Part shown: one piece after another, positions 1,563 through 9,587 of the stretch
Position numbering within the stretch: position 1 is the stretch's first letter
How the letters are laid out: each line of letters opens with the position of its first letter
NCBI GenBank assembly: GCA_024686195.1
Contig: JAIBDO010000004.1
Coordinates: 1-37,932, forward strand
Direction of reading: 5' to 3'
Length of the DNA stretch: 37,932 bases
Origin: Gammaproteobacteria bacterium
Lineage (GTDB): Bacteria > Pseudomonadota > Gammaproteobacteria > GCA-001735895
Position numbers and translations under genes: made by a program
Notes under the pieces: generated by a model
What the model was told of the DNA's origin: nothing
Database searches by the model: none
What the model saw: the letters and a program-made list of their open reading frames with translations, nothing else

Positions 1563-1940
1563 ATGGATCGACGACACACAAAACTCATCTCGACGCTAAT
1601 GGCGTTGCTGATGTTTATCTCCCCGATCAGTAGCCTGGCGATGCAGTCGGCTATGCAATCGGCGATGGCAGGGGACCACTCCAGCCATTGCCAGGAATCA
1701 GGTGCCGATTCGCATGCTCATTCCATGATCGGCGAGAATATGGAGTCCATCCAGTGTCTGATGGAACATTGTGCTGATGTTTGTGCTTCTATGCAGCATT
1801 GCTCAAGCCAGGCACCCATTATTCTCTCTCAGACCGACCATCAGGGTTATCTTAAAGGGCAAAGGCTCGCGTTAGACCCGGTAAAAGATTCTCATCTCTC
1901 CGTACACCCCCCAGGCTTATACCGCCCACCCCGGGCCTGA
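1563..1940 (+). CDS. Small His/Cys/Met-rich periplasmic protein (CopL/DUF2946-like)
   Basis: The 125-residue product starts MDRRHTKLISTLMALLMFIS, a Sec-type signal ending near LAMQS. The mature part has many potential metal ligands: repeated MQSAM, HSSHCQESGADSHAHSM, ECLMEHCADVC-like spacing and CASMQHC. The tail ends GLYRPPRA, as in the short DUF2946/CopL-type proteins found beside copper-resistance genes. An in-frame TTG 33 codons upstream would spoil the signal peptide, so the ATG at 1563 is preferred even though its Shine-Dalgarno is poor. It lies 119 bases before cusC on the same strand. A role in periplasmic copper binding or sensing is inferred from composition and position. Confidence 0.6.
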   Translation: MDRRHTKLISTLMALLMFISPISSLAMQSAMQSAMAGDHSSHCQESGADSHAHSMIGENMESIQCLMEHCADVCASMQHCSSQAPIILSQTDHQGYLKGQRLALDPVKDSHLSVHPPGLYRPPRA

Positions 1941-2059: not shown

Positions 2060-3400
2060 ATGTCGATGAAGTTACTGTCGAATAGAGATTCAATCCGTTT
2101 TTGTTTCCCCAGCCTTCTTTTAATGCTGATGTTGGCTGGGTCGAATAGTCTGGCCGCGGAGGTGCTGACCTTGAAAAAGGCAGAATATCTCGCGCTGCAG
2201 AACGAGCCCGGAATACTGGGGCTGGACGCTAAAACGCAATCCATGATGCAAAAAAGCATCGCTGCCGGCGAGCTTATGGATCCGAAGCTGCAGTTTGGTG
2301 TTCTCAATCTGCCAACTGACAGCTTTGAATTCGATCAGGAGAATATGACCCAGTTCAAGGTGGGCTACATCCAGCAATTCCCGTCAGGCGATAGTCGCGA
2401 GCTAAAGCGTGACAAAGCCGTTAGCCAATCGCGCCAATTTCAACACCAGATCGAAGAGCGCAAGCGCCAGCTGTTGACCCGGGTGCGGCTCTCTTACCTT
2501 GAAACAATTTACTGGGAGCAGGCGCGTGAGACCGTGCAGCAAAACCGGCAACTGGTCAGCCAGTTATCAGAATATGTGCAATCTCTGTTCGCGGTTGGAC
2601 GCACCAACCAGTTTGAGTTCATTAGCGTTCAACAACGGCTGAGCAAGCTGGACGATCGCTTGACTCAAATCGAACAGAACATAAGCGATGAGCGCTACAG
2701 ATTGTCGGAATGGGTCGGCGAGAGGTTCACCGAATTACCGCTAAGCGCTGGTCTGCCGGTGCTTGGACAAATTCCCTGGGAGCAACTTGATCTCGAGCAA
2801 ATCAATCAGTTGATTGCCCAACATCCAAAAATCCAGGAAATCAATAATCAGATCGACGTCAGCCGCATGGATCTGGAGTTGATTCGCGAGAGCGAGAAAC
2901 CGGGCTGGGCTTTGAATGTCAGTTACGCCTATCGCGAAGACGCGCCCGACGGCACGGATCGAGCTGATTTCTTCTCGGCCATGGTAACCCTGGACCTGCC
3001 GCTGTTCACCGAAAACAGGCAGGAAAAGCAACAACAGGCTCAACACTACGAAGTCAAAGCAAGTCAGCTGCAGCGTGACGCGATGCTGCGAAAATTGCGT
3101 TCTGATGTTCTGCGCCTGAAGACCAACCTCGAGCTGTCGGAACAACGCGTTGAGTTATACCGCGAGACCCTGGTGCTGCAGGCCGAACAGCGCTCTCAGG
3201 CTGCCTTGCAAACCTACCGGTCGGGGAGCGGAAGTTTTGCCGACATCATGCAGGCCTACATGGATGCACTGAACATACAGCTGGAGCAGAAACGCATTCA
3301 GATCGACAGCCTGAAATCCCGGGCACGATTATTGTATTTCCTGCAGGCATCGTCTGACGCGGAAAACACTCCCGCATCCTCATCAAATTATTCGAACTAG
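2060..3400 (+). CDS. cusC: CusC-like outer-membrane efflux channel (TolC family)
   Basis: The product of 446 residues has a signal peptide at about 1-32 (hydrophobic LLLMLMLAGSNSLAA, no lipobox cysteine, unlike E. coli CusC). Two OEP repeats of long amphipathic helices follow, at about 40-240 and 255-430. Typical TolC-family segments include RLSYLETIYWEQA, YVQSLFAVGRTNQFEFISVQ and a late LQTYRSGSGSFADIMQ. It would form the trimeric outer-membrane and periplasmic duct that receives Cu(I)/Ag(I) from CusBA. It is the first gene of a tight operon, ending nine bases before cusB. The channel assignment is strong. Metal specificity comes from the neighbours rather than from this protein. Confidence 0.88.
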   Translation: MSMKLLSNRDSIRFCFPSLLLMLMLAGSNSLAAEVLTLKKAEYLALQNEPGILGLDAKTQSMMQKSIAAGELMDPKLQFGVLNLPTDSFEFDQENMTQFKVGYIQQFPSGDSRELKRDKAVSQSRQFQHQIEERKRQLLTRVRLSYLETIYWEQARETVQQNRQLVSQLSEYVQSLFAVGRTNQFEFISVQQRLSKLDDRLTQIEQNISDERYRLSEWVGERFTELPLSAGLPVLGQIPWEQLDLEQINQLIAQHPKIQEINNQIDVSRMDLELIRESEKPGWALNVSYAYREDAPDGTDRADFFSAMVTLDLPLFTENRQEKQQQAQHYEVKASQLQRDAMLRKLRSDVLRLKTNLELSEQRVELYRETLVLQAEQRSQAALQTYRSGSGSFADIMQAYMDALNIQLEQKRIQIDSLKSRARLLYFLQASSDAENTPASSSNYSN

Positions 3401-3409
3401 AGGCTCAAA

Positions 3410-5371
3410 ATGAATCGATTACTCATTGGTTTTATCTTTATCGTTCTGGGCATCACGATCGGCTATTCCGCGCAATCGCATATCCGCGAGATCCTCGTTA
3501 GCAGCGGGCTTTCAGATGCAAAAAGCATGGATGGCTCAGGCGCGTCGGAAAGAGAGGTTCTTTACTGGGTTGCGCCAATGGACGCGAACTATCAGCGCGA
3601 CCAACCCGGTAAATCGCCCATGGGCATGGACCTGGTGGCCGTCTACGCCGATGAAGCCAGCTCGGAAGCGGGCGTTGTCAAGATTAACCCGACGGTCGTC
3701 AACAATCTAGGTGTGCGCACCAGCAAGGCCACACTGGGCGTACTTAACCGTGATATCGATACCGTTGGCTATATCGGTTTTGACGAAGAGAAGATCTTCC
3801 ACGTGCATACACGTGTCGAGGGCTGGATCGAGCGCCTGCTGGTGAAGACCGAAGGGGAAAAAGTCAAAAAGGGTCAGAAACTTTTCGAGATCTATAGCCC
3901 GGAACTGGTCAACGCGCAGGAGGAGTATCTGTCTGCGCTGAACAGCAAGAATGAATTTTTGGTAAAGGCATCGGAAAAACGACTGCGTCTACTGGGGATC
4001 GGAAAGCAGCAAGTCAGGCGTTTGAAAGAATCTCGCAAAGTCCGCCAACGGATCGATTATTTCGCAGAACACACGGGGTTTTTAGATGTGCTGAATATCC
4101 GCGAAGGCATGTTTGTCAAACCAGCGACTGACATACTCTCGATCGGCCAGCTGGATACTGTCTGGGTTATTGCCGAGGTATTCGAGCAGCAGGCTAGCTG
4201 GATCAGTGCCGGGCAGGACGTCGACATGTCGGTGACAGCCCTTCCCGGACGCAGCTGGAGTGGGAAGGTGGATTACATCTATCCTGTGCTCGATGCCAGC
4301 ACCCGGACTTTAAGGGTCAGAGTGCGTTTCGATAACCCGGATTTCCTGTTAAAGCCTAATATGTATGTGCGCCTGCAGATTCATGCCGCCACCGATCAAC
4401 AAACCATTTACATCCCGCGTGAAGCGCTGATACGCAGCGGCAGGATGGACCGGGTCGTGCTTGCGTTGGGCGAGGGCAAATTCAAATCGGTGGTGGTCAA
4501 CGCCGGAATCGAAAGCGATTCGGATGTCGAAATCCTCGAGGGTCTACAACAAGACGATGTGGTGGTTACTTCCGCGCAGTTCCTGATTGATTCCGAATCC
4601 AGTTTGACCGCTGAATTCGGGCGTATGGAGGACGCCGAAATGGCTATGAGCAAGGATGCAAGCCCCGATGAGGCCTGGGTAGACGGCGAGGTAACTGCGG
4701 TAATGGCTGGCCACAACATGCTGACCGTGCAACACCAGCCGGTCGACAGTTGGGGCTGGCCGGAGATGGTCATGGACTTCACTGTCAACGAGTCCATTGC
4801 GCTCGACGATTTCAAGGCTGGATCGACTATCCGTATGCTTGTGCAAAAGCTGGCATCCGGTGGCCTCGAGGTGGTTGAGATTGAAGCTGCGGATATGAGC
4901 CCAGACATGGACGACACGATGGTGTGGGTAGACGGGGAGGTTACCGCGGTCATGCCGGGTCACAACATGCTGACCATTCAGCATCAGCCGGTAGACGCCT
5001 GGGGCTGGCCGGTGATGACGATGGATTTCAATGTCGACAATGACGTTCCCATCGCGCACATCAAGAACGGTGAAGCGATTCGCTTCCAGGTTAAAAAGCT
5101 GGACAGCGGCGGTATCCGCGTCGTCGCTATCGACGATGACCGGGTTGCCTGGGTTAAAGGCCGGGTAAACCAGGTTAAAACCGATCAGCGCAAGCTCAAC
5201 CTGGATCACCAGCCGGTCGATGCCTGGGACTGGCCGGTGATGACGATGGATTTTCCGCTCGCCGACGCGGTTGATATCAAGCAGTTCAAGGAAGACCAGA
5301 AAGTCCAGGTTCTGGTGATCAAGAAAGAATCCGGTGCCATCGAAATCATCGATGTAAAAAAGGAGATGTAA
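3410..5371 (+). CDS. cusB: CusB-like periplasmic adaptor with three C-terminal CusF domains
   Basis: This 653-residue protein has, in order: an N-terminal anchor (about 5-22); a heavy-metal-binding YHS-like segment at 50-80 (YWVAPMD ... GKSPMGMDLV); the barrel-sandwich and beta-barrel core of RND adaptors (about 90-395); then three CusF-type OB-fold repeats at about 422-492, 505-575 and 580-653. Each repeat keeps the E. coli CusF Cu(I)/Ag(I) ligand spacing His-x7-Trp-x2-Met-x-Met: H442/W450/M453/M455, H525/W533/M536/M538 and H600/W608/M611/M613. The protein should link CusA to CusC and also pass metal to the pump, which explains the absence of a separate cusF here. CusB is usually about 400 residues. 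A CusF fusion is known in some homologues, but three in tandem is unusual. It ends one base before cusA. Confidence 0.92.
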   Translation: MNRLLIGFIFIVLGITIGYSAQSHIREILVSSGLSDAKSMDGSGASEREVLYWVAPMDANYQRDQPGKSPMGMDLVAVYADEASSEAGVVKINPTVVNNLGVRTSKATLGVLNRDIDTVGYIGFDEEKIFHVHTRVEGWIERLLVKTEGEKVKKGQKLFEIYSPELVNAQEEYLSALNSKNEFLVKASEKRLRLLGIGKQQVRRLKESRKVRQRIDYFAEHTGFLDVLNIREGMFVKPATDILSIGQLDTVWVIAEVFEQQASWISAGQDVDMSVTALPGRSWSGKVDYIYPVLDASTRTLRVRVRFDNPDFLLKPNMYVRLQIHAATDQQTIYIPREALIRSGRMDRVVLALGEGKFKSVVVNAGIESDSDVEILEGLQQDDVVVTSAQFLIDSESSLTAEFGRMEDAEMAMSKDASPDEAWVDGEVTAVMAGHNMLTVQHQPVDSWGWPEMVMDFTVNESIALDDFKAGSTIRMLVQKLASGGLEVVEIEAADMSPDMDDTMVWVDGEVTAVMPGHNMLTIQHQPVDAWGWPVMTMDFNVDNDVPIAHIKNGEAIRFQVKKLDSGGIRVVAIDDDRVAWVKGRVNQVKTDQRKLNLDHQPVDAWDWPVMTMDFPLADAVDIKQFKEDQKVQVLVIKKESGAIEIIDVKKEM

Positions 5372-5372
5372 C

Positions 5373-8300
5373 ATGATTGCCGCCATTATTCACTGGTCGA
5401 TACGCAATCGATTCTTCGTCATTTTATCGACCCTGATACTGTTGGGTGCGGGCGTTTACGCCGTCAAACAAACGCCCATCGATGCGATACCGGATTTGTC
5501 CGACGTGCAGGTCATCGTTAAAACCAGCTACCCCGGGCAGGCGCCGCAGGTGGTGGAGGACCAGGTCACCTACCCGTTGACCACCGCCATGCTTTCCGTG
5601 CCCAAGGCGGTCACCGTACGTGGCTTTTCGTTCTTCGGAGATTCCTATGTTTATGTCATTTTCGAGGAAGGCACCGATCTGTACTGGGCTCGCTCGCGGG
5701 TGCTGGAATACCTGAGTCAGGTCTCCGCCTCCCTGCCCGCTGCCGCCAAACCGCAACTCGGACCAGATGCGACCGGCGTCGGTTGGGTGTTCGGTTATGC
5801 GCTGGTCGATCGTAGCGGCAGACACGACATCAGCCAGTTGCGCAGCATGCAGGATTTCTTTCTCAAGTATGAACTGCAGACGGTGCCCGGTGTATCCGAG
5901 ATTGCCACCTTTGGCGGCATGGTCAAACAGTACCAGGTGGTGGTCGACCCTGATCGCCTGCGCGCCTACAACCTGCCGATCAGCGCGATCCAGATGGCCA
6001 TCAAGATGGGTAACCAGGAAGCCGGTGCGTCGGTGATCGAAATGGGAGAAGCCGAATACATGGTGACCGCCAGTGGCTATCTCGACGGCATCGAGAGCCT
6101 GAAACGTATTCCGCTAGGACTCAATCAAAACGGTGTACCGCTGCAACTCAAGGATGTCGCCGATGTCATTACCGGGCCGCAAATCCGCCGTGGTATCGCC
6201 GACCTGAACGGCGAGGGCGAGGTCGTCGGCGCTTATGTCGTCATGCGTTTTGGCGAAAATGCGCAGACCACGATCGACAGCATAAAGGAGAGGCTCCAGT
6301 CGCTGCAGAAAGGGCTTCCTGACGGTGTGGAAATCGTGACCACTTACGATCGTTCCAACCTGATTCAGCAGGCGGTTAAAAACCTGTACGAAAAGTTGCT
6401 GGAAGAGTTTATTGTCGTGGTGCTGATCTGTGCCCTTTTCCTGTTCCATTTTCGCTCTTCGCTGGTCATCATCATCAGCTTACCTATCGGCATCCTGGGT
6501 GCATTCGTGATCATGTATGCGCAGGGTTTGAATGCCAATATCATGTCTCTCGGCGGCATTGCCATCGCCATCGGCGCGATGGTCGATGGTGCTATCGTGA
6601 TGATCGAAAACGTGCACAAGCACATTGAAAGCAAGCCATTGACGCCGGAGAATCGTTGGCAGATTATCGGTGAAGCTTCGGTTGAAGTCGGGCCGCCACT
6701 TTTCTTCTCATTGCTCATCATCACCCTGAGCTTTCTGCCGGTATTCACGCTGGAGGCCCAGGAAGGAAAAATGTTTGCCCCGCTCGCCTATACCAAAACC
6801 TATGCGATGGCGGTTGCCGCCGGGTTGTCGATTACCCTGGTGCCGGTGTTAATGGGGTATTTCGTTCGCGGGAAAATAATTCCGGAGCATAAGAATCCGT
6901 TTAACCGTCTGGTTACCTGGATTTACCTGCCGGTTATTCGGGCAGTGCTGGATGGGCCTAAAACCATGATCCTCATCGCCATGATCGTGCTTGCCATCGG
7001 CCTGTGGCCCGCCACCAAAATCGGCAGTGAATTCATGCCGCCGCTGGACGAGGGCGATTTGATGTACATGCCGACGACCTATCCGGGCATTTCCATCGGC
7101 AAGGCGCGCGAGTTGCTGCAACAAACCGACAAGCTGATCAAGACGGTCCCGGAAGTGAAATCGGTGTTTGGCAAGATCGGCCGAGCCGACTCGGCCACCG
7201 ATCCGGCACCGTTGACGATGATCGAAACGCTGATACAGCTTAAGCCGAAATCGGAATGGCGCCCCGGCGTCACCACCGACTCGTTACGCGCCGAACTCGA
7301 CAGTCTGGTGAAGTTCCCGGGGTTGACCAACGCATGGGTCATGCCGATCAAAACCCGCATCGATATGCTGGCTACCGGAATCAAGACCCCGGTGGGCATC
7401 AAGGTGGCTGGGCCAAAACTGGATGTGATCGAAGCCATCGGCAAGCAGCTTGAACCACTGCTCAAGGACATTCGGGGCACCGCCTCCGTGTATTCCGAGC
7501 GCGTGGCGGGTGGTCGCTACATCAAGGTCGATATCGACCGTAACAAGGCGGCGCGTTATGGGCTCAACATAGCGGACGTACAAAGCGTTATTAAAATGGC
7601 GATAGGCGGAATGAGCGTTGCGCAAACCATCGAGGGACTGGAGCGCTATCCGATCAATATCCGCTATCCGCAGGCCTATCGAGACTCGGTCGAGAAAATA
7701 CGCTTGTTGCCATTGACCACAAAAAACGGTCAGCGCATTGCGCTCTCGGATGTGGCCGATGTGCGCATCGAGGACGGACCACCGGCGATTAAGAGCGAGA
7801 ATGCCCGCCTGAATGGCTGGACGCTGGTCGATATCGCCGATCGTGATCTTGGCTCCTATGTTGAAGAGGCCCAGCGTGTGGTGGCGGATAATCTCGAATT
7901 GCCCGCGGGTTACTCGATTGCCTGGTCGGGTCAGTACGAGTATATGGTGCGTGCCAGGGAACGCCTGTCCGTCGTAGTCCCGTTGACGCTGGCCATTATC
8001 ATGCTGCTGCTGTACATCAACTTTCGTAACGTGGTCGAAGTGCTGATCATCATGGGCACGCTGCCCTTTGCGCTCATCGGTGGCATCTGGCTGATTTATC
8101 TGTTGGGCTACGATATGTCGGTCGCCGTGGGCGTGGGCTTCATCGCCCTGGCCGGGGTGACCGTGGAAATCGGCGTGTTGATGCTGGTGTACCTGAACCT
8201 GGCATTTTCCCGGGTCAAGCTAAAGGCGATGAATGAAAATCGCGAACTGAACCGGGATGAAATACGCAGCGCAGTCGAGGAGGGTGCGGGCCGGCGCGTG

Positions 8301-8525
8301 CGCCCGATCATGATGACCGTTGCGGCTATAGTGGTTGGCCTGATTCCGATCATGTTCGGCGAAGGTACCGGATCGGAAGTCATGCAAAGGATCGCCGGGC
8401 CAATGATTGGCGGCATGATAAGTTCTCTGGTACTGACGTTGCTGGTGATTCCGGCGATTTACTTCCTGTGGAAGTCCAGTACCCGCCTGAAACCCCGTGC
8501 ACCAATATCGAAACAGGAGGCCTGA
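5373..8525 (+). CDS. cusA: CusA-like heavy-metal RND efflux pump
   Basis: The 1050-residue length is typical of HME-RND transporters, and the protein has the usual pattern of 12 membrane segments and two large periplasmic loops. The three methionines that carry Cu(I)/Ag(I) in E. coli CusA (M573, M623, M672) have matches with identical spacing: M566 in MYMP, M616 in LTMIET and M665 in RIDMLATGIK. This supports monovalent copper/silver export over Zn/Co/Cd. The membrane segment with GAMVDGAIVMIEN carries the proton-relay acidic residue. The protein is expected to be a trimeric proton-driven pump with CusB and CusC. AGGAG precedes the ATG, and the stop of cusB is one base upstream. Part of its 3' end is duplicated at 8970-9139. 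Confidence 0.95.
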   Translation: MIAAIIHWSIRNRFFVILSTLILLGAGVYAVKQTPIDAIPDLSDVQVIVKTSYPGQAPQVVEDQVTYPLTTAMLSVPKAVTVRGFSFFGDSYVYVIFEEGTDLYWARSRVLEYLSQVSASLPAAAKPQLGPDATGVGWVFGYALVDRSGRHDISQLRSMQDFFLKYELQTVPGVSEIATFGGMVKQYQVVVDPDRLRAYNLPISAIQMAIKMGNQEAGASVIEMGEAEYMVTASGYLDGIESLKRIPLGLNQNGVPLQLKDVADVITGPQIRRGIADLNGEGEVVGAYVVMRFGENAQTTIDSIKERLQSLQKGLPDGVEIVTTYDRSNLIQQAVKNLYEKLLEEFIVVVLICALFLFHFRSSLVIIISLPIGILGAFVIMYAQGLNANIMSLGGIAIAIGAMVDGAIVMIENVHKHIESKPLTPENRWQIIGEASVEVGPPLFFSLLIITLSFLPVFTLEAQEGKMFAPLAYTKTYAMAVAAGLSITLVPVLMGYFVRGKIIPEHKNPFNRLVTWIYLPVIRAVLDGPKTMILIAMIVLAIGLWPATKIGSEFMPPLDEGDLMYMPTTYPGISIGKARELLQQTDKLIKTVPEVKSVFGKIGRADSATDPAPLTMIETLIQLKPKSEWRPGVTTDSLRAELDSLVKFPGLTNAWVMPIKTRIDMLATGIKTPVGIKVAGPKLDVIEAIGKQLEPLLKDIRGTASVYSERVAGGRYIKVDIDRNKAARYGLNIADVQSVIKMAIGGMSVAQTIEGLERYPINIRYPQAYRDSVEKIRLLPLTTKNGQRIALSDVADVRIEDGPPAIKSENARLNGWTLVDIADRDLGSYVEEAQRVVADNLELPAGYSIAWSGQYEYMVRARERLSVVVPLTLAIIMLLLYINFRNVVEVLIIMGTLPFALIGGIWLIYLLGYDMSVAVGVGFIALAGVTVEIGVLMLVYLNLAFSRVKLKAMNENRELNRDEIRSAVEEGAGRRVRPIMMTVAAIVVGLIPIMFGEGTGSEVMQRIAGPMIGGMISSLVLTLLVIPAIYFLWKSSTRLKPRAPISKQEA

Positions 8526-8527
8526 TA

Positions 8528-8836
8528 ATGAAATACTGCAAAGTAGTGGCGATCATGAATGTCACGGACTACAACGTGCTGCATCTGCCCATTCAGCAGA
8601 TGGATGTCCCGGGCGTAACCGTCAGCATGGTTAAAGGGTTTGGCGACTGCGTTAATAACTTCAGCCCTTATGGATTCTCCAACAACATGAAAGTGGAAAT
8701 CTATACCTCCGCAGAACAGGCAGAAGTGATTGCCGTCGAGTTAGCTGCGCTGGGCGATCAATTGACAGAAGGTGGTGGTGTCGTTGCGATCGAACCAGTG
8801 CAGCAGTTGATGAATGTCAGAAAGCTCCAGAATTAG
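8528..8836 (+). CDS. PII-like signalling protein of the copper efflux operon
   Basis: The product has 102 residues. It begins MKYCKVVAIMNVTDYNVLHL, with the beta-strand pattern of small PII/CutA-type ferredoxin-like proteins, and has KGFGDCVNNFSPYGFS where the T-loop would lie and VEIYTSAEQAEVIAVEL after it. PII-like proteins are known next to CzcA/CusA-type pump genes (the group sometimes called PII-NG). AGGAGG lies eight bases before the ATG, and only two bases separate it from the cusA stop, so it is translated from the same message. No classical uridylylation tyrosine site is evident. A role in sensing metal or nucleotide state and modulating the pump is inferred from context; the ligand is unknown. 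Confidence 0.75.
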   Translation: MKYCKVVAIMNVTDYNVLHLPIQQMDVPGVTVSMVKGFGDCVNNFSPYGFSNNMKVEIYTSAEQAEVIAVELAALGDQLTEGGGVVAIEPVQQLMNVRKLQN

Positions 8837-8969: not shown

Positions 8970-9139
8970 ATGCAAAGGATCACCGGGTCAATGATCGGCA
9001 GCATGATTAAGCCTCCTGGTATTGACGTTGCTGGTGATACTGGCGATTTACTTCCTGTGGAAATCCTGTATCCGCCTGAAGTCCTGTATAAAATTATCGA
9101 AAACGGAGACATGAAAATGAAATACTTGTCCAAAGTAGT
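8970..9139 (+). pseudogene. Decayed duplicate of the cusA 3' end and the PII-gene start
   Basis: By eye, 8970-9139 aligns with 8382-8548. It starts with the same ATGCAAAGGATC and continues through TTGACGTTGCTGGTGAT and GGCGATTTACTTCCTGTGGAA, with close to 90% identity over the first 95 bases and less after that. One extra base near 9008 shifts the frame, so the C-terminal CusA reading (QRIAGPMIGG...) is lost. The match runs through the cusA stop region into ATGAAATAC...AAAGTAGT, the start of the PII-like gene. The last part of the duplicate now overlaps the start of the cupredoxin gene. Confidence 0.75.
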
Positions 9140-9587
9140 AATCTGCAGTCTGATTTCATCGGCTGCCCTCGCCAGTGGCACCCATAGCGACAGTCACGGC
9201 CATATGAAGTATAGCGTTGGTGAGCCTGGTGGAGGCACGCCCGATCGTGTTATCTCAGTTTCAATGCAGGACAGCATGCGATACGAATTTTCACCAGACC
9301 TGGTTTCACTCAAGGATGGTGAAACCATCGAATTTCTTGTCCGCAACGACGGTAAGCTTCAACACGAGTTTTCAATCGGTAACGCCGAGGATCAGGTCAA
9401 GCATGCGATCATGATGAAAAACATGCCCGACATGAAACACGATGATCCGAATACGGTTTCTCTGGCGCCTGGCGAATCAGCCAGACTTTCCTGGAAATTC
9501 ATGGGTCAGGACTCGGTTGTCTTTGCCTGCAATATTGCTGGTCATTTTGAAGCAGGGATGAAACACAGTCTGGCGATAGGCCACTAA
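9117..9587 (+). CDS. Periplasmic cupredoxin (type 1 copper protein)
   Basis: The 156-residue product has a signal peptide (MKYLSKVVICSLISSAALAS) and a short His-rich start to the mature chain (HSDSHGH). A plastocyanin/azurin-like domain follows. The type 1 copper ligands are visible: H83 in LQHEFSIG and C138, H143 and M148 in FACNIAGHFEAGM, the expected Cys-x4-His-x4-Met spacing. A Met/His-rich insert (HAIMMKNMPDMKH, 96-108) could bind extra copper. The ATG at 9117 is chosen because GGAG (9105-9108) lies eight bases before it; the ATG at 9111 is only two bases away. It probably binds or oxidises periplasmic copper alongside the Cus pump. Its translation start region lies within the duplicated cusA/PII DNA. 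Confidence 0.82.
   Translation: MKYLSKVVICSLISSAALASGTHSDSHGHMKYSVGEPGGGTPDRVISVSMQDSMRYEFSPDLVSLKDGETIEFLVRNDGKLQHEFSIGNAEDQVKHAIMMKNMPDMKHDDPNTVSLAPGESARLSWKFMGQDSVVFACNIAGHFEAGMKHSLAIGH

Follow-up and report, generated by a model that had tools for sequence, protein, structure and literature searches.

Three tandem CusF domains on a CusB-type adaptor as a candidate built-in chaperone of a copper and silver pump

Our question was what a CusB-type pump adaptor could gain by carrying three CusF metallochaperone domains in a row at its C-terminus, and whether such an arrangement is peculiar to one organism. The window analysed here (the whole stretch of DNA, 37,932 nucleotides of one gammaproteobacterial contig) encodes such a protein in the middle of an efflux cluster (Table 1). 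An earlier note on this DNA had read the repeats as a built-in loading or buffering device, which is plausible from the sequence. We consider it probable that the array is a chaperone built into the adaptor of a CusCBA pump, one that captures Cu(I)/Ag(I) and loads the pump in cis in place of free CusF.

Table 1. Features of the window and adaptors with several CusF domains at other loci (L numbers)
Feature	Position	Strand	Basis or detail
Small His/Met/Cys-rich putative exported protein, cluster start	1563..1940	+	sequence alone
CusC/TolC-like outer-membrane factor	2060..3400	+	OEP PF02321, E 7e-31
CusB-type periplasmic adaptor, 653 aa	3410..5371	+	ATG 3410, stop 5371, single open frame
Adaptor parts: N-terminal TM anchor, adaptor core, three C-terminal CusF domains	3410..5371	+	
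HMBD / CusB N-terminal metal site	3563..3646	+	PF19335; alignment to 3ne5
Linker from adaptor core to CusF 1, mostly disordered by prediction	4592..4669	+	AlphaFold2
CusF domain 1	4673..4885	+	PF11604, E 6.1e-22, 78.9 bits; site H442-x7-W450-x2-M453-x-M455
CusF domain 2	4922..5134	+	PF11604, E 1.6e-23, 84.0 bits; site H525-x7-W533-x2-M536-x-M538
CusF domain 3	5147..5362	+	PF11604, E 1.1e-23, 84.6 bits; site H600-x7-W608-x2-M611-x-M613
CusA-type RND pump	5373..8525	+	TIGR00914, 1223 bits
PII-like small protein, directly 3' of cusA	8528..8836	+	PF00543, 28 bits
CopI-like cupredoxin (copper resistance), putative	9111..9587	+	NF047895, E 4e-34, under its cut-off
Two-CusF adaptors	L071, L070, L067, L091, L092		
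Three-CusF adaptors, Alteromonas/Paraglaciecola/Salinimonas	L090, L093, L095, L099, L170		
Four-CusF adaptor, Roseibium	L172 3498-5741		
Four-CusF adaptor, Thalassovita	L168 4143-6365		
Five-CusF adaptor, Dinoroseobacter shibae plasmid pDSHI06	L173 3183-5648		Pfam-confirmed

The identity of the adaptor was assessed by profile and structure matches. Pfam finds HMBD (residues 52-78), HlyD_D23 (112-320) and three CusF_Ec stretches totalling 223 bits, and the HlyD/CusB core matches PF16576 with an E-value of 8e-83. The best match in the PDB is E. coli CusB (3ne5, E 1.6e-56, residues 42-408), while the NCBIfam model for the E. coli type of CusB gives 240 bits, below its cut-off of 390. In the alignment to 3ne5, M57, M71 and M73 fall on the E. 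coli CusB residues M21, M36 and M38. The window CusA aligns with E. coli CusA along its length, and in the PDB alignment its M566, M616 and M665 fall on M573, M623 and M672. With the core, the three-Met site and both the CusA and the outer-membrane-factor partners present, the protein classes by sequence as an adaptor of the HME-RND family of the CusB type. Because the N-terminal three-Met site of CusB and the Met triad of CusA are both there, the cluster is assigned as a predicted Cu(I)/Ag(I) CusCBA operon. It resembles the E. coli CusCFBA system (CusB 3ne5, CusA 3k07) in adaptor fold, both Met sites and the CusF ligands, whereas in E. coli CusF is separate and soluble and CusB has no CusF domain.

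The neighbourhood is partly shared with related loci. An outer-membrane factor homologue also lies upstream of CusB in kin loci, and the CusA of one of these (L071) has 84% identity to the window CusA. Homologues of the PII-like protein occupy the same position in the close kin L070, L071, L067, L091 and L079, and only there among the fetched loci. The small protein that opens the cluster had no family match, and no homologue was detected among the fetched loci. Recent transfer was also considered on base composition, which gives no signal of it, as the cluster, with a GC of 0.51-0.56, does not stand out from the remaining contig.

Each of the three copies scores about 50 bits or more above the curated PF11604 cut-off of 27 bits, and the exact His-x7-Trp-x2-Met-x-Met spacing claimed in the earlier note was matched three times, with the His, the Trp and both Met residues in all three copies. 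Only a few residues separate domains 2 and 3. Modelled by AlphaFold2 on their own (mean pLDDT 86.6, pTM 0.54), the three repeats show the five-strand pattern three times. In a fold search with this model, single barrels matched CusF with bound Cu(I) (2vb2, 1.9 A, TM 0.84 normalised by target length), SilF and, at a TM of 0.78, the SilB C-terminal domain (2l55). The top ranks of the search went to multi-domain beta-barrel proteins whose TM-scores are low, and these matches are uninformative. By profile and model, then, the copies are complete CusF domains with the small five-stranded barrel predicted, and the triple match goes far beyond chance. The full-length model, which also has an N-terminal helix (2-31), reaches a pTM of 0.43 and has a pLDDT below 50 for residues 395-417, and because of these two values the placement of the barrels relative to each other is undefined. 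The ring of sites that had been proposed thus finds no fixed inter-domain arrangement in either model. A profile search of the assembly returned no other CusF, though in a fragmentary draft that is 91% complete a free CusF could be missing.

In the mechanism that we favor, each CusF barrel would take one periplasmic Cu(I) or Ag(I) through its His and two Met residues, capped by the Trp. The flexible linker past the adaptor core would let the barrels deliver the metal in cis to M57/M71/M73 of CusB, from which it could pass to the CusA three-Met site, or the barrels might load CusA directly. The tethered CusF would in this way stand in for diffusing CusF. Such a route has a precedent in E. coli, where CusF and CusB exchange metal via a shared-ligand intermediate (PMC6235853). 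The same source gives a CusA3:CusB6 stoichiometry. A CusA trimer thus comes with six CusB, and such a pump could carry up to 18 CusF sites, so that the earlier note's count of extra sites holds. Additional copies may raise the local number of sites and speed up capture, and they may leave some sites usable while others are oxidised. The loss of Met repair is suppressed when cusF is overexpressed, and the M47Q/M49Q variant of CusF is inactive (PMC9302797); under oxidising copper stress a higher number of copies could therefore be of help. We infer all of this: that metal is bound, in what order it is transferred, and that a higher copy number is of benefit.

The array could instead be a static buffer or sink that sequesters periplasmic Cu(I)/Ag(I) beside the pump and does not pass it on. 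Three tethered sites per chain would suit such a role, as would the putative copper-binding CopI-like protein in the same cluster. However, the fusion to a pump adaptor and the conservation of the acceptor sites point to transfer, as does the metal exchange seen between the E. coli proteins, and we consider a pure sink quite improbable.

The fusion of CusB to a CusF domain has been seen before in single form, as the earlier note said. In SilB of Cupriavidus metallidurans CH34 the adaptor ends in one CusF-like domain (PDB 2l55; Bersch et al. 2011, reviewed in PMC4446572), for which a metal-chaperone role is described (PMC4446572). SilB is like the window protein in being an HME-RND adaptor with a C-terminal domain of the CusF metal-chaperone fold, but has one such domain against three. 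In PMC3548706, CusB-CusF fusions are listed for 22 gammaproteobacteria, with one gene for both proteins as in the window, and the single fusions are taken to question the role of CusF as a soluble carrier. Among the open-access papers covered, none was found to describe CusF domains fused in tandem.

A first concern with any tandem repeat is whether it exists. The assembly is a draft of 268 contigs, so that a false expansion of the repeat could be imagined. Against this, at least a third of the DNA positions differ between the repeats, and finished replicons or plasmids carry triples (for example L170 and L171); on both grounds an assembly artefact is rejected as scarcely credible. Over 71 aligned residues the first two repeats share 62.0% identity, against 38.0% for the first and third and 40.8% for the second and third, so the pair that had been singled out as most alike is so. 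The DNA of the first two repeats is 66.7% identical, with the same codon at 25 of the 44 shared residues and half of the third positions different, which argues against an artefact and also against a truly recent duplication.

Domain trees were used to place this duplication, and their support is moderate because each domain offers only about 72 columns. In the smaller tree the first two repeats are sisters (76/88) and the third joins a group (95/91) made up of the second domains of kin plus both L071 domains; in the larger tree the support for the first pair is 33. The word "recent" in the earlier note was therefore too strong. A clade of the third repeat with just four chosen second domains of kin was rejected (p-AU 0.0075), and it fails because both L071 domains fall among them. 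Placing the first repeat with the first domains of kin to the exclusion of the second repeat gave a p-AU of 0.06, and a single clade of all three window repeats was not rejected (p-AU 0.12). In a tree of 52 adaptor cores with the CusF domains removed, the sister group of the window protein is a set of five two-domain adaptors (99/92), and a further two-domain adaptor is the next branch outside. Judging from these trees, the most likely origin of the triple is a two-domain ancestor in which domain 1 was copied, and the duplication would postdate the split from the third repeat without being recent. At another locus (L183, G598:C1 303000-306500) two CusF domains share an identical 19-residue site stretch, which by sequence marks a duplication much more recent than that of the window.

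The search for similar adaptors covered 370 genomes of the class, 398 of the phylum and the best 80 named loci. Among the class genomes, a frame with two CusF domains occurs in 11 others and one with three in none. Among the Pseudomonadota genomes sampled, 7 of the 397 others have a frame with at least three CusF domains; six of these frames have four and one has three, and all seven were verified as CusB with CusF. In the named genomes and plasmids, two-CusF adaptors are widespread in Alteromonadales and Vibrionaceae; since the named loci were picked by similarity to the query they give a range and not a frequency. In the tree of adaptor cores the state of three or more CusF domains requires at least four changes. 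By this distribution and tree, adaptors with 2 to 5 CusF domains arose repeatedly in marine bacteria, by independent expansion. Closer to the window, 30 genus-mates of varying completeness were searched and none of the CusF matches examined was a CusB-CusF fusion, which rules out a genus-wide trait; two-domain forms are present in members of the same family from another genus.

These results change how singular the window protein looks. The earlier note had implied that it stands alone and had held that triple-CusF adaptors proving common would count against its reading. Adaptors with two, three, four and five CusF domains are spread across Alpha- and Gammaproteobacteria, so the singularity finds no support, and triple-CusF adaptors do prove common in part. 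The window protein is a well-preserved, ordinary instance of a recurring design and not a one-off.

The least expected result of the analysis was that the last CusF domain is often conserved but has no ligands. The multi-CusF relatives share the CusB core and the tandem CusF domains with the window protein but differ in copy number and in the state of the sites, the last copy often being ligandless. Counting close relatives, whose rows are not independent, the full set of His, Trp, Met and Met is kept in the first CusF of 81 of the 83 two-domain adaptors and in the second CusF of 15. In about 54 of the 83 second domains Arg replaces the His and also the Trp, usually with Ala for the first Met, as in ISRGPIEKWDRPAATMDF (H to R, W to R, M to A); such last domains are found in L069 3530-5281 (-), L108 4792-6519, L121 395-2161 and about 50 further loci. 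Another 12 of the 83, mainly in Vibrionaceae and allies, have lost the first Met alone. The triples are divided, four of the eight, including that of the window, having all three sites intact and four a ligandless third domain. Alphaproteobacterial adaptors differ from the window in having Met for Trp in copies 3-5; in L168, L172 and L173 this change runs from copy 3 onward and the first CusF has Ser or Thr for the last Met.

Because the last CusF is mostly conserved yet ligandless, copy number is not the same as site number, and because the second CusF is ligandless in most two-domain relatives, an extra CusF need not serve metal capacity. That such a domain is conserved without its ligands points to some function that is not metal binding and might be docking. 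One could go further and take the repeats as mainly structural, with CusF barrels that dock or space on CusB/CusA and a copy number that drifts by slippage or recombination under weak selection for metal capacity. Terminal domains that keep the fold with Arg in place of ligands, together with the ligandless third domain in half of the triples, would fit this. What it leaves unexplained is that all three sites are intact in the window, in Salinimonas and in one Alteromonas lineage, and that nearly all adaptors have an intact first domain, so we think a mainly structural role rather unlikely. A staged relay is a further reading, with tandem arrays on CusB that evolved repeatedly and became functionally differentiated, the intact copies capturing metal and the ligandless or Met-for-Trp copies docking or gating; we hold this only tentatively and would not expect it to be correct. 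For the window protein, a chaperone that loads the pump in cis stays our preferred reading. Nature offers a series that runs from one to five tethered copies, with both intact and ligandless ones, so that one can test directly what tethering and copy number are worth.

Other arrangements of metal ligands were seen along the way. Four genus-mate loci (L072 3282-4823 (-), L074 3-1196, L075 3320-4678 and L076 4243-5388) encode a different protein with three tandem CusF domains, all with Met for Trp (H-x7-M-x2-M-x-M), and a C-terminal region that Pfam does not match; in L072 and L074 a CopI-like gene lies near it. In L077 (3203-5002 (-)) an adaptor with one CusF domain continues into a long His/Met-rich tail (DHSSMDHSQ...), which may be another route to extra metal ligands on CusB.
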